Source of the DNA: Terracoccus sp. 273MFTsu3.1
GTDB lineage: Bacteria > Actinomycetota > Actinomycetes > Actinomycetales > Dermatophilaceae
Reading direction: 5' to 3'
NCBI RefSeq assembly: GCF_000383675.1
Contig: NZ_KB911830.1
Coordinates: 1 to 64,000, forward strand
DNA length: 64,000 bases
The stretch's first letter is position 1. Every line of letters begins with the position of its first letter. The position numbers and the translations under genes are program-made. Below, one piece after another: positions 224-62,018 of this stretch. Under the pieces are notes generated by a model, which did not search any database, had not been told where the DNA came from, and worked only from the letters and a program-made list of their open reading frames with translations.

Positions 224-318
224 ACGTCTCGGCGCGAGCGCCGCGGACGGGCGAAAGCGTAGCCGAGCCGGACGGCATACGCCCAAACACCGGGCGCGAC
301 CGACGCCCGACACGAGAA

Positions 319-362
319 GGACGGCCCCGCGCAAACCCAGGGGTTGGTCGCGCGAGGCCGTC
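319..362 (-). terminator. Hairpin downstream of the rpf-like gene
   Basis: GGACGGCC-CCGCGC pairs with GCGCGA-GGCCGTCC across a 17-nt loop, about 20 nt past the stop of the Rpf-like gene. There is no strong U tract, which is common in high-GC actinobacteria. Confidence 0.55.
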
Positions 363-383
363 CGGCACAGTTGTATCAGGAAC

Positions 384-1034
384 TCACGGAAGTCGCAGAG
401 TCTGACCCACGAAGATGAGGTTCGGGTTGGTGACCCGAGCGCCGTTGGCCTTCCAGAGCGCCTTCCAGCCGCCTGACACGTGGTAGCGCGCGGCGATCTT
501 GCCGAGAGTGTCGCCGCGGTGCACGGTGACCTTGGCGCCCTTGGCGGTGTTCGTGACCGTCGGCTTCGTCGCGTACGTCTTCTTCTTGACGACCTTCTTC
601 GTCGTCACGGGCTTGCGGACCGTCGACCGCGAGACCGGGGTCGACGTGGCACCGCCGTTGGCCCGCGTCAGGCCGGCACGCTGGGAGCACACCGGCCAGG
701 CGCCCGGCCCCTGGGACGCGAGCACGCGCTGCGCGATGGCGATCTGCTCGGCCCGCGTGGCGAGGTCGGCGCGCGGCGCGAAGGCCGTGCCGCCGTAGCC
801 GCGCCACGTGCTCTGCACGAACTGCAGGCCGCCGTAGTAGCCGTTGCCGGTGTTGATGTGCCAGTTGCCGCTCGACTCGCACTGGGCGACGCGGTCCCAG
901 ACCGAGGCGGCCTTCGCCGACCCGCCCGTGGCGATGCCGCCGACGATGGTGGCTGCTCCAGCGATTCCGACTCCCGCGATGCGCTGCTTGGCCGAGATCT
1001 TCTTGGCCGCAGCATGCTTGGACATGTACTGCAT
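384..1034 (-). CDS. Resuscitation-promoting-factor-like lytic enzyme with LysM
   Basis: This 216-residue secreted protein probably cleaves or remodels peptidoglycan during growth resumption. Residues 1-43 form a basic start, a hydrophobic stretch and an Ala-rich cleavage region. A compact transglycosylase-like (Rpf) domain follows, with [16 protein letters not shown], the expected catalytic Glu53 and the GGLQF motif. A Lys/Thr/Val linker leads to a C-terminal LysM module (about 169-216) for glycan binding. The ATG at 1034 has AGGAAGGA 7 nt upstream. The long 5' leader carries a ydaO-type riboswitch, so c-di-AMP probably controls expression. It could equally be called a LysM/transglycosylase-like cell-wall hydrolase. 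Confidence 0.88.
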
Positions 1035-1050
1035 GGGTGATCCTTCCTGA

Positions 1051-1232
1051 CGCGCGCCTGCGGGGTTAGCTGTCGGGTTGGGGCGTCAGGTGCCCCGTCG
1101 CGGATGCGACTTCACCCCGAGACCAGATCTCGTCCTCTTGACATGCGCTTCGACACACATGCACTCACTGGCCACACTGGGTCCCCCGTCCTCGCCCGGC
1201 CCACGGGTGTGGGCTACATCCCTGGCTGGCGA
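1051..1232 (-). promoter_or_regulatory. ydaO-type (cyclic di-AMP) riboswitch upstream of rpf-like gene
   Basis: On the minus strand the leader shows the conserved blocks of the ydaO class in order: GACGGGGGACCC (1179-1190), GGGGTGAAGTCGCATCCGCG (1099-1118), then CCCGACAGCTAACCCCGCAGG (up to 1055-1075), ending 15-20 nt before the start codon. Consensus members read GCGGGGGACCCA ... GGGUGAA ... CCGUCAGCUAACCUCG. In actinobacteria this riboswitch class commonly precedes rpf and other wall-hydrolase genes and usually switches expression off when c-di-AMP is high. The P1 ends were not folded. Confidence 0.87.
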
Positions 1233-58956: not shown

Positions 58957-59216
58957 GGGTCCAATCTAGGCGGCTGCCTGGTGGTCGGTGGGGCGAAGGC
59001 CCGAACGAGATGCGACCTGGGCCCTTGCGGTGGGTCGACGTCGAGCGTGCTCGGGCGCAGAGGTTGCGTCGGGTCGGGAGCGCCTCTCGGCACAGGGCCG
59101 CTCGTAGCGGCTGAATTTGGGACCCGGGGCTACCACGACCCGACGCGCGTCAAGGATAAAGCCGCCCGAACGGATCACCAAAGATGTGCCGGCGCAAGAC
59201 CCCGTCGGTCGTGCGG
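58957..59216. other. Intergenic stretch with no recognised element
   Basis: About 260 bp between the small acidic gene and the unknown gene ending at 59217. The stretch near 59110-59170 is less GC-rich and may hold promoter elements for the minus-strand small gene, but I see no clear boxes. Confidence 0.4.
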
Positions 59217-59828
59217 TCAGTCGAGCGCGTCCGCGCGCCACAGGCGAGCGCAGACGGTGAGGTCCTCGGCCATGACGAGGACGTTGGCCGCCTGCTCGGC
59301 GGACTCGTCGCCCGAGGAGATGTCGGCGCGACCGGCGGAGACGACGCGGCAGAACGCCGACGCCCGCTCGAGGGCGACGGCGAGGTCGCCCTCGAAGACC
59401 CCGCGCAGCACCTCGTCGATGACGCGCCCCATCTCCTGGGGCCCGGGCGGCTCGGCGGCACCGGCCACGGCGTGGTTGGGGCCGGTGAAACGGATGCCGG
59501 CGGCATACTCCCGGCTCGCCTCGTCGGGCGCCCGCTGCACCCACTCACGAAGCACGTAGAGGCGCCACAAGGCGCCCGGGAGGGAGCGGGCGGGGCGCTG
59601 GGACCACAGCTCGGCGAGCGTCGACAGGCCGATGTCGTCGACGAGTGCGACGAGCTTCTGCGTCACCGCGGGGTCGGACGCCGCGCGTCCGGCATGGACG
59701 AGCGCGAGAGCCGTCTCGTGGGCGACGTGGATCTGCTCGGTGGGGTCGTAGGCAGGACCGTGTGCCTCGAGGGCGGCCTCGCTGAAGAAGGCGGGCCGCC
59801 TGGGGGCGTGGTGCTCGCTCTCGCTCAT
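59217..59828 (-). CDS. Conserved-looking protein, unknown
   Basis: A 203-residue soluble protein, MSESEHHAPRRPAFFSEAALEAHGPAYDPTEQ at the start, mostly helical, with no signal or membrane span and no recognised motif. The pattern of charged helices (VIDEVLRGVFEGDLAVALERASAFCRV) suggests a folded domain. It lies 82 bp downstream of lutC on the same strand, so co-transcription with lut is possible. Confidence 0.65.
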   Translation of the reverse strand: MSESEHHAPRRPAFFSEAALEAHGPAYDPTEQIHVAHETALALVHAGRAASDPAVTQKLVALVDDIGLSTLAELWSQRPARSLPGALWRLYVLREWVQRAPDEASREYAAGIRFTGPNHAVAGAAEPPGPQEMGRVIDEVLRGVFEGDLAVALERASAFCRVVSAGRADISSGDESAEQAANVLVMAEDLTVCARLWRADALD

Positions 59829-59910
59829 CCCAGCAGGCTAACCCCCGACGCCCACGGCGCTGCTCTGGCACGCAGCGCTCGCTCGTGCCCGCACGACACG
59901 CTGAGCCGCG

Positions 59911-60531
59911 TCAGCTGACGCCGTCAGCCGGGGGTATGCCGTCCGCGCCGCCGACGAGGACGACGTGGAGGGTGCGCGGGCCGTGGACGCCCTCGACGCG
60001 GCTCAGCTCGATGTCGCTCGTGGCCGACGGCCCGCTGATCCACGTCGTCGGGCTCGCTGGGTCGAGTCGCCTGACGGCAGCCGGGACGTCGTCGACGACC
60101 TGGTCGGCGCGCACGACGCAGACGTGGAGGTCGGGCACCAGCGTCAGCAGCCGCCGCCCCTCCCCCGGTCCGTGCGAGAGGACGATCGTCCCCGTCGTCG
60201 CGATCGCGACGGTCGCCGTGGTGACGACGGCCGTGGTCGCGTCGAGGTCCGCCGCGCTGAGTCCGTCGTCCGGGACCGCGCCGGGGACGGCATAGGGCAT
60301 CCCGTCGGGGACGACGACGGTGGCGCCGTCGGGAAGAGCGGCCGCGATGGCGGCGGCGACACCGCCCGGACCGCACCGCACGACGGTGGCGCGAAAGTCG
60401 GCCACCCGCTCGGCGAAGAGGTCGACGTCACCGTCGCGGTCGGGCCGGTCGAGCGCGGGGACGTCGACGGGACGTCGCGCCGATGCGATGGCGTCGCGGA
60501 CCGCACCGAGGATCTCGTCGCGCGCACTCAC
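59911..60531 (-). CDS. lutC: LutC-like LUD-domain protein
   Basis: This 206-residue LUD-domain protein ([65 protein letters not shown]) is the third subunit of the L-lactate oxidation complex. GTG 60531 overlaps the lutB stop by 4 bp (GTGA). Confidence 0.92.
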
Positions 60532-62018
60532 CGCGTGCCGCCGTCGGTGCGCTTCCACCAGGCGCGGAACGACTCCGCGGGCGGCGCGGGCAGGTCGCGT
60601 GCGTCGGTCCAGGCGGCGCCGGGGCCGGGCAGCCGGCCGAGCAGCCGTCGGCCGCCGGCGCGCCTGTCACGACGGGCGATCCGCGAGATCGCATCGTGGG
60701 CTCGACCCGCCAGGCCCGACGCGCGCTCGGCTGCGGCGAGCCGGCCACCCGACCCGAAGGTCGCGGCGGCCGCGCGCATGGCGAGCGCCTCCGCCTTGGG
60801 AATCCCGGTCCGGTGGGCGTCGACGACCTGGGCGCGCAGGTCGACGAGGACGCTGGGGATGTCGATGCGCACGGGACAGGCCTCGAAGCACGCCCCGCAG
60901 AGCGAGGAGGCGTACGGCAGGGAGTCGGTCTGGTCGTCGTGGCCCACGCCCTTGAGGAGCGGGTTGAGGATGGCGCCGATGGGACCGGGATAGACGGAGC
61001 CGTAGGCGTGGCCGCCCGTGCGCTCGTAGACGGGGCACACGTTGAGGCAGGCCGAGCACCGGATGCAGCGCAGCGCCTGGCGGCCCACCTCGTCGGCGAG
61101 GGCGCGCGTGCGGCCGTTGTCGAGGAGGACGACGTGGACCTCCTGCGGCCCGTCTCCGGGCGTCACCCCGGACCATGTCGAGGTGTAGGGATTCATCCGC
61201 TCCCCCGTCGACGAGCGAGGCAGCAGGGTGAGGAAGACGTCGAGGTCGGTCCACGTGGGGACGATCTTCTCGATGCCGACGACGGAGACGAGCACCTCGG
61301 GGAGGGTCAGGCACATGCGGCCGTTGCCCTCGGACTCGACGACGACGAGGGTGCCGGAGTCCGCGACGGCGAAGTTGGCACCACTGACGCCGACCTTGGC
61401 GCGGAGGAACTTCTCGCGCAGGTGCAACCGAGCCGCCTCGGCCAGTCGGGCCGGGTCGTCGATGAGGTCGGCCGGGGCCGGCCGACCGACGCGTGCCATC
61501 TCGCGCTCGAAGACAGCGCGGATCTCGGCACGGTTGCGGTGGATGGCCGGCACGAGGATGTGGCTCGGGAGGTCGTCGCCGAGCTGGACGATGAGCTCGG
61601 CGAGGTCGGTCTCCCATGCGGAGATCCCTTGCGCCGCAAGGTATTCGTTGAGCTCGATCTCCTGCGTGGCCATCGACTTGACCTTGACGACCTCGTCGAC
61701 GCCGTGGGCTCTGGCCACCCGGGCCACGACCTCGGACGCCTCTTGCGCCGTGCGCGCCCAGTGGACGACCGCCCCGCGTGCGGTGAGCGACTCCTCGAGG
61801 CGGACGAGGTGCTCGTCGAGGTGGAGCAGGACGTCGTCCTTGATCGCGGCGGCCCGGACGCGCAGCGCCTCCCAGTCGTCGACCTCGGCGACGACGGCCG
61901 CGCGCTTGGCCCGGATCGTCGTCGTCGCGTGGGCGAGGTTGGCCCGCAGCTGCGTGTCGGCGAGGGCGGCGCGGGCGGCGGTGGGGAACGGCGGCATACC
62001 GACGAAGGTGCGGCTCAT
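60528..62018 (-). CDS. lutB: LutB-like iron-sulfur subunit
   Basis: This 496-residue protein has an N-terminal LUD domain ([20 protein letters not shown]) and a C-terminal ferredoxin-like domain with [15 protein letters not shown] and [10 protein letters not shown], binding two 4Fe-4S clusters. It carries electrons during lactate oxidation. ATG 62018 overlaps the lutA stop (ATGA). Confidence 0.94.

Follow-up and report, generated by a model that had tools for sequence, protein, structure and literature searches.

Uptake sequences have been described in two bacterial lineages, Neisseriaceae and Pasteurellaceae, the only ones named in the accessible part of a study of the latter (PMC12616744). 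In the portion available of the survey by Frye et al. (2013, PMC3630211), the 10-mer DNA uptake sequences (DUS) of Neisseriaceae number 943 to 5,918 copies per genome, and the excerpted text of another study indicates that DUS distribution marks mobile elements (PMC7371117). For the uptake signal sequences (USS) of Pasteurellaceae, the minor pilin ComN/PpdA is the predicted receptor in the accessible part of PMC12616744. In Micrococcus luteus, according to the sections available of PMC4322843, deletions in either of two tad clusters, tadB excepted, abolish transformation. Here we describe an octamer, GTATGCCG, that is repeated on both strands of the first 64,000 nucleotides of contig NZ_KB911830.1 from Terracoccus sp. 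273MFTsu3.1 (Dermatophilaceae; assembly GCF_000383675.1), a stretch hereafter referred to as the window. The source genome (G000; 4.94 Mb, 18 contigs) is included in genus g1, Terrabacter. We consider it likely that GTATGCCG functions as a DNA uptake sequence in actinobacteria capable of natural transformation, since its abundance, hard core, dialects, strand neutrality, retention between genomes and scarcity in strain-specific DNA jointly match DUS and USS.

The original prediction, made from the window, listed 32 copies, and all 32 positions and strands agreed with the sequence (Table 1). Its chance expectation of about two copies was too high, as dinucleotide shuffles gave 0.76 (largest of 100 shuffles, 3). 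The observation that GTATGCC is always followed by G held for 32 of 32 occurrences in the window, but elsewhere for 247 of 258 (464-kb sample of the genome); GTATGCCGTCCG was seen six times in the window, as claimed. The complete assembly contains 2,244 copies of GTATGCCG (1,133 forward and 1,111 reverse), compared with 257 of the reversed control pattern. In the 464-kb sample, 247 copies were present versus 6.1 expected; counts for the 24 one-letter variants ranged from 0 to 97, corresponding to 0 to 2.8 times their expectation, and the flanking preferences were weak, with C before the motif in 65% of copies, T or C after it in 82%, and then C in 60%. A Markov count had been proposed as a check and, in an 818-kb sample, an order-3 model predicted 20.2 copies where 404 were found, with GTATGCCG at the top of the z-score ranking of 8-mers with at least 30 copies (z = 85). 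The flanking sequence varies from copy to copy, which argues against confinement to one repeat family.

The lack of strong strand polarity noted for the window extended to the 818-kb sample (206 plus, 198 minus), to which the following figures also refer, and to 360 kb of one contig (97 on each strand), where no 40-kb bin was strongly one-sided. According to the gene model, 14% of the sample lies outside genes and holds 119 of the 404 copies, corresponding to 2.55 times the in-gene density, and gaps between convergent genes were the densest (2.12 copies per kb vs 0.77, 0.90 and 1.15 elsewhere). The gaps between copies were slightly more even than random (coefficient of variation 0.85), 7.2% of them being 250 bp or shorter, compared with 11.6% expected. 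Within genes, the motif was read as TAT-GCC in 169 and as GCA-TAC in 84 of 285 copies, and it accounted for 169 of the 308 TAT codons and 22 of the 40 ATA codons. In the window, a codon-usage gene model placed 14 of the 32 copies between genes, rather than the 13 first reported. The earlier statement that in-gene copies are written with TAT or GCA was correct for 14 of 18 (10 TAT-GCC and 4 GCA-TAC) but not for the remaining four (two GGC-ATA, one GTA-TGC and one ATG-CCG).

Conservation of sites between related genomes, another check proposed with the original prediction, was evident in a comparison of contig G000:C5 with contig G008:C13 of Terrabacter sp. Root85 (222.6 kb aligned, 93.8% identity). 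GTATGCCG was intact at 88 of 102 orthologous sites, whereas control octamers of the same strong/weak pattern were intact at 146 of 299 (p = 5e-12). Eleven of the 14 changed sites differed from GTATGCCG by one base, and TAT codons were kept in 42 of 50 cases inside the motif versus 10 of 27 outside it. Strain-specific DNA, defined as 12 blocks without alignment, each 0.8 kb or longer (33.2 kb in total), contained two copies versus 15.7 expected (p = 2e-5). These blocks were restricted to gaps inside the span in which the two contigs are syntenic, because a large share of the G000:C5 sequence that did not align falls outside this span; an unrestricted comparison of conserved and unaligned sequence revealed no difference in density (0.458 vs 0.443 per kb).

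The density of GTATGCCG in a family sample of 186 Dermatophilaceae genomes from 53 genera was bimodal, with 108 rich (at least 100 copies per Mb), 13 intermediate (40 to 100) and 65 poor (below 40) genomes. All nine Terrabacter genomes were rich (1,423 to 2,358 copies, the lowest being that of a genome 74% complete). The intermediate genomes, from genera g32, g37, g38, g39 and g41 together with single genomes of g3 and g6, may be decaying, incomplete or written in an unrecognised dialect. Some genera include a poor genome among rich ones: G045, with 37 copies versus 1,251 to 1,660 in four congeners; G140, with 50 versus 394 to 1,901 in 30 congeners; and G114, with 19 versus 3,681 and 1,062. 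Among 394 genomes sampled across the class, including 8 Dermatophilaceae, no other family appeared enriched by eye, and densities outside the family peaked at about 50 per Mb (as in G228, with 386 copies in 7.5 Mb and 176 of the control); G491, also of this sample, had 170 copies versus a control of 27. Named relatives, besides Root85 (G008), are Terrabacter sp. Ter38 (G007), Dermacoccus abyssi (G017), a Phycicoccus metagenome-assembled genome (G020) and Phycicoccus elongatus Lp2 (G190); we take G023 to be Intrasporangium calvum and g60 to be Ornithinimicrobium.

Variants of GTATGCCG, studied in 20- to 464-kb samples of 16 genomes and by whole-genome counts of chosen variants, were largely consistent within genera. 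GTATGACG was found in all five g40 genomes (1,622 to 1,966 copies, beside 1,734 to 2,542 of GTATGCCG), in G011 (1,557), in G012 (834) and in four g33 genomes (319 to 729; 13 in their poor congener G045), and it was scarce in Terrabacter (9 to 33). GAATGCCG reached 3,135 copies in G020, three times the GTATGCCG count of that genome (1,025); G079 had 730 copies, G081 388 and the Terrabacter genomes 32 to 209, and in G023, 30 of 34 sampled copies extended to GTATGCCGCTG. No comparable substitute motif was found in eight poor genomes, each sampled over 37.5 to 100 kb. On a ComEC tree of 39 rows (without L145, L148, L150, L158, L163, L164 and the ComEC of G021 and G022), for which the labels of named rows were each taken from one 11- to 22-kb locus, the rich/poor label required 8 changes; at least 6 of these were forced by well-supported branches, deep support being weak. 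One poor row (L162) was placed among the outgroups. Of 500 label shuffles, 82 (rich) or 70 (poor) did as well as the real labels, and the label was not clearly clustered. The single shared core and these label changes suggest that the trait may be old and repeatedly lost, independent gains being another option.

ComEC was present in all 23 genomes searched and ComEA in 179 of 186, the seven without it being drafts of 30 to 760 contigs. No feature relatable to the motif was seen in the part of the ComEA alignment that was viewed, and no gene near comEC in G000 was matched in every one of the seven other rich loci while lacking a match in all eight poor loci; the nearby glycerol-3-phosphate acyltransferase gene matched in three rich and no poor loci. 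Counted from its first start codon, the ComEA frame of G022 (L077) is short at 137 amino acids, apparently without the SLBB part; this genome is also motif-poor and without the TadA described below. A search of 23 family genomes yielded no type IV pilus protein PilM (PilM_2), compared with hits in 6 of 14 genomes from other families in the order, and a ComP-like type IV minor pilin is therefore unlikely.

TadE was identified in 22 of the 23 family genomes searched. The Tad/Flp cluster of G000, starting at C5:39925, comprises tadA, tadB, tadC, a small flp and the genes for three minor pilins, E1, E2 and E3. E1 matches Pfam TadE and E3 Pfam Tad; E2 has no Pfam match; all 28 aligned E2 sequences share two invariant cysteines, separated as C-x4-C except in G016, where they are closer together. 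We followed this one cluster, counting com-type tadA at an E-value of 1e-60 or better and scoring broken copies as present. Com-TadA was found in 168 of 186 genomes, the 18 without it being 14 poor genomes and four above 40 copies per Mb; that is, 117 of the 121 genomes at or above 40 per Mb carried it, versus 51 of the 65 below this density (p = 1.2e-4). None of the six genera wholly without com-TadA (three of them single-genome) was rich, versus 34 of the 47 others (p = 0.0012), and with cut-offs of 80 and 105 per Mb, 32 (p = 0.0024) and 30 (p = 0.0044) of these 47 were rich. E2 was not found in 20 of 186 genomes, with a similar association (p = 2.4e-4). Pilus loss accompanies motif loss, but many poor genomes have retained the pilus; uptake in these may be unselective, or may not occur.

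Broken pilus genes were rejected as the cause of motif loss, as insertions also occur in G008, G001, G006 and G176, all of them rich. The com-type tadC of Root85 contains a 10,167-bp element (L263:134-10300; G008:C13:100134-110300) with a gene for a serine recombinase of 532 amino acids (Pfam Resolvase and Recombinase) and no GTATGCCG. The poor genomes G114 and G194 have a broken tadC, in which homology stops near the codon of the G008 insertion (G194) or about 40 codons later (G114). Among the listed matches with both genes on one contig, the distance between tadA and E2, usually 3.4 to 4.0 kb, was 11.9 to 40.9 kb in 8 of 127 genomes (G008, G176, G040, G199, G006, G001, G189 and G114), and the competence pilus locus therefore looks like a recurrent insertion target. 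Insertion into competence genes has reportedly been argued for other bacteria.

We propose that the octamer would act as a self tag, biasing natural transformation towards DNA of the same species or close kin. A competence-type Tad/Flp pilus, the putative parts of which are TadA, TadB, TadC, Flp and the minor pilins E1 to E3 (G000:C5), would capture double-stranded DNA carrying the octamer extracellularly, through a subunit that reads the sequence. Retraction of the pilus would pull the DNA in to ComEA, and one strand would then pass through ComEC and be recombined. Since tagged stretches would be taken up more often, chance copies would spread and persist, and such molecular drive could therefore generate thousands of strand-neutral copies, overriding codon preference at positions where Tyr-Ala or Ala-Tyr is acceptable in the protein. 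We infer uptake as the selecting force on the octamer, and the Tad route is proposed by analogy with M. luteus.

The original prediction had left four roles to choose from: uptake sequence, modification site, Chi-like signal and segregation signal. The distribution, dialects, conservation, depletion in strain-specific DNA and link to competence-pilus genes support the first of these, and the balanced strands disfavour the last two. A Chi-like recombination hotspot, read by a RecBCD, AddAB or AdnAB nuclease and serving to protect and repair the cell's own DNA, would also fit the genome-wide abundance, the retention at orthologous sites and the strain-specific scarcity. However, Chi-type signals are usually oriented with replication, and no orientation bias or strongly one-sided 40-kb bin was seen (in stretches of up to 394 kb, with the origin unmapped); a tie to the absence of com-TadA would also be unexpected, and we regard this explanation as improbable. 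The spread over the genome and the higher density between genes would suit the site of a chromosome-organising or segregation protein, similar to FtsK-orienting polar sequences (KOPS), matS or Noc sites. Nevertheless, KOPS-like signals are polar, the strong polarity of this type is lacking in GTATGCCG, and near-absence from G045, G140 and G114 would be odd for an essential chromosome function, so such a role seems very unlikely.

A modification site accounts for less of the data. The hard 8-bp core, with its sharp drop at single mismatches, and the patchy occurrence within the family would suit a site recognised or modified by a methyltransferase or a defence system and enriched in the manner of the cyanobacterial HIP1 repeat. 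Yet GTATGCCG is not palindromic, restriction sites are usually avoided rather than enriched, and variants that differ by genus and accept several bases at a single position would not be expected, which makes this explanation highly improbable. We give almost no credence to the motif being a by-product of mutation or codon usage, or else a family of dispersed repeats, given the use of the rare TAT and ATA codons, the absence of matching enrichment in one-letter neighbours, the excess over the Markov expectation and the different flanks of the copies. To our knowledge, abundance, a hard core, dialects, strand neutrality, retention and strain-specific scarcity are not combined in any Chi, KOPS or methylation motif.

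Several observations nevertheless weigh against an uptake sequence. A Chi-like signal would likewise be poor in foreign DNA, and the scarcity in strain-specific DNA concerns one genome pair and 33 kb, in which unaligned may mean diverged. ComEC and ComEA were rejected as discriminating factors, both occurring in rich and poor genomes alike; the 51 of 65 poor genomes that keep com-TadA indicate that the pilus alone is insufficient, and the genus-level statistics ignore phylogeny. The four genomes above 40 per Mb without com-TadA include G128 and G197 (73% and 68% complete) and also G144 and G150 of g60, which have an estimated completeness of 100% and 464 and 284 copies per Mb (1,624 and 994 copies). 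E2 is present in G144 and absent from G150; these two genomes have perhaps lost tadA recently, the tag not yet having decayed. A minor pilin is our best guess for the receptor, E1 to E3 being candidates only. No joint report of 'naturally competent' and Intrasporangiaceae was found in the open-licence literature. Finally, pairs of copies within 60 bp show no overall excess (11 vs about 11.7 expected in the 818-kb sample), and 9 of these 11 are inverted (p = 0.065). Seven of the nine inverted pairs are in hairpin order, plus then minus (2.9 expected), and the flanks are clearly complementary by eye in seven of nine. Both inverted pairs of the window fold well (Table 1). Inverted DUS pairs in Neisseriaceae serve as terminators.

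The open-licence literature (subscription papers and preprints excluded) yielded nothing comparable on GTATGCCG, on uptake sequences in Actinobacteria, this family or its genera, or on dialects; the octamer occurs in 643 papers, of which the 40 listed seem, judging by title, to have no connection with it. With some reserve, we lean towards a broader interpretation, in which GTATGCCG would represent a third uptake-sequence system of independent origin, without precedent in Gram-positive bacteria and the first to be read by a Tad/Flp pilus; the receptor would be a minor pilin (e.g. the TadF-like E2, which has a conserved C-x4-C loop). The system would be old in Dermatophilaceae and often lost, its dialects would act as species barriers, and the mobile elements inserting into tadC or tadA would apparently be in conflict with transformation. 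If this is true, self-tagging has evolved anew on a different pilus, in Actinomycetota, as a third case, in a family with Tad but no type IV pilus genes found, which would point to natural transformation where the open-licence literature yielded no description of it. The 186 genomes, with many losses and several dialects, would then constitute a strong data set for a receptor search by co-variation.

Table 1. Copies of GTATGCCG and inverted pairs of copies in the 64-kb window
Feature	Position	Strand	Context
GTATGCCG copy	273..280	-	intergenic
GTATGCCG copy	2308..2315	+	Ser/Thr-kinase gene, GCA TAC
GTATGCCG copy	2721..2728	-	same Ser/Thr-kinase gene as 2308 copy, TAT GCC
GTATGCCG copy	6556..6563	-	intergenic
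GTATGCCG copy	7989..7996	+	in gene, GCA TAC
GTATGCCG copy	17173..17180	+	intergenic
GTATGCCG copy	18726..18733	+	intergenic
GTATGCCG copy	19958..19965	-	intergenic
GTATGCCG copy	22031..22038	-	cysteinyl-tRNA synthetase gene, TAT GCC
GTATGCCG copy	22500..22507	+	intergenic
Inverted pair (23349 -, 23367 +)	23349..23374	.	between genes; hairpin, 12-bp stem; -23.7 kcal/mol, z -5.7
GTATGCCG copy	27298..27305	-	in gene, GTA TGC
GTATGCCG copy	29914..29921	-	in gene, TAT GCC
GTATGCCG copy	31227..31234	+	intergenic
GTATGCCG copy	33372..33379	+	in gene, GCA TAC
GTATGCCG copy	34189..34196	-	glycosyltransferase gene, TAT GCC
Inverted pair (36864 +, 36887 -)	36864..36894	.	between genes; long GC-rich hairpin; -32.8 kcal/mol, z -4.9
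GTATGCCG copy	39321..39328	+	intergenic
GTATGCCG copy	40097..40104	-	in gene, TAT GCC
GTATGCCG copy	42573..42580	+	GCV_T-like gene, GCA TAC
GTATGCCG copy	43847..43854	+	in gene, TAT GCC
GTATGCCG copy	44748..44755	-	in gene, TAT GCC
GTATGCCG copy	48144..48151	+	predicted gene start, scored as intergenic
GTATGCCG copy	48460..48467	-	acetyltransferase gene, GGC ATA
GTATGCCG copy	48616..48623	+	same acetyltransferase gene as 48460 copy, TAT GCC
GTATGCCG copy	52203..52210	+	in gene, TAT GCC
GTATGCCG copy	56881..56888	+	intergenic
GTATGCCG copy	59501..59508	-	in gene, TAT GCC
GTATGCCG copy	59934..59941	+	LUD-domain gene, GGC ATA
GTATGCCG copy	61992..61999	-	LUD/4Fe-4S protein gene, ATG CCG

The longest stretch of the window free of GTATGCCG (positions 7997-17172, 9.2 kb) has a lower GC content (0.68) and contains genes for ABC-transporter permeases and a solute-binding protein beside a LacI-type regulator. 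This region may represent a cassette for sugar uptake that was gained recently.

By eye, E1 and E2 are similar in their N-termini to TadE and TadF of M. luteus as given in the accessible part of PMC6370729. M. luteus needs two tad clusters according to the sections available of PMC4322843, whereas one was followed in the family genomes, and the terms 'uptake sequence' and 'sequence-specific' are absent from the main text of that study in its available form. Like GTATGCCG, the USS of Pasteurellaceae, of which there are two types, are short and abundant motifs; they differ in having an unrelated sequence (Hin-USS AAGTGCGGT, Apl-USS ACAAGCGGT) and in their association with a type IV pilus, none having been found in the family genomes searched (PMC12616744, accessible part). 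The Neisseriaceae differ in phylum and cell envelope from the bacteria studied here, which have Tad/Flp genes and no PilM in 23 family genomes, and in Neisseria ComP is the receptor, whereas there are only candidates here. GTATGCCG lacks the CTG core of all DUS dialects, as these appear in the portions available of the DUS papers, and only the long form in G023 continues with CTG. The extended form in Terrabacter, CGTATGCCGTC, has ATGCCGTC in common with the meningococcal AT-DUS 12-mer, as pieced together from parts of several papers, and this overlap was taken as chance because CGTATGCCGTC has no CTG core. Judged by its sequence, GTATGCCG belongs to neither the DUS nor the USS lineage. However, it shares with DUS, as described in the accessible part of PMC3630211, an abundance of hundreds to thousands of copies per genome (here up to 4,724), lineage-specific dialects with a conserved inner part, family members without a tag, and the occurrence of two dialects side by side within one genome.

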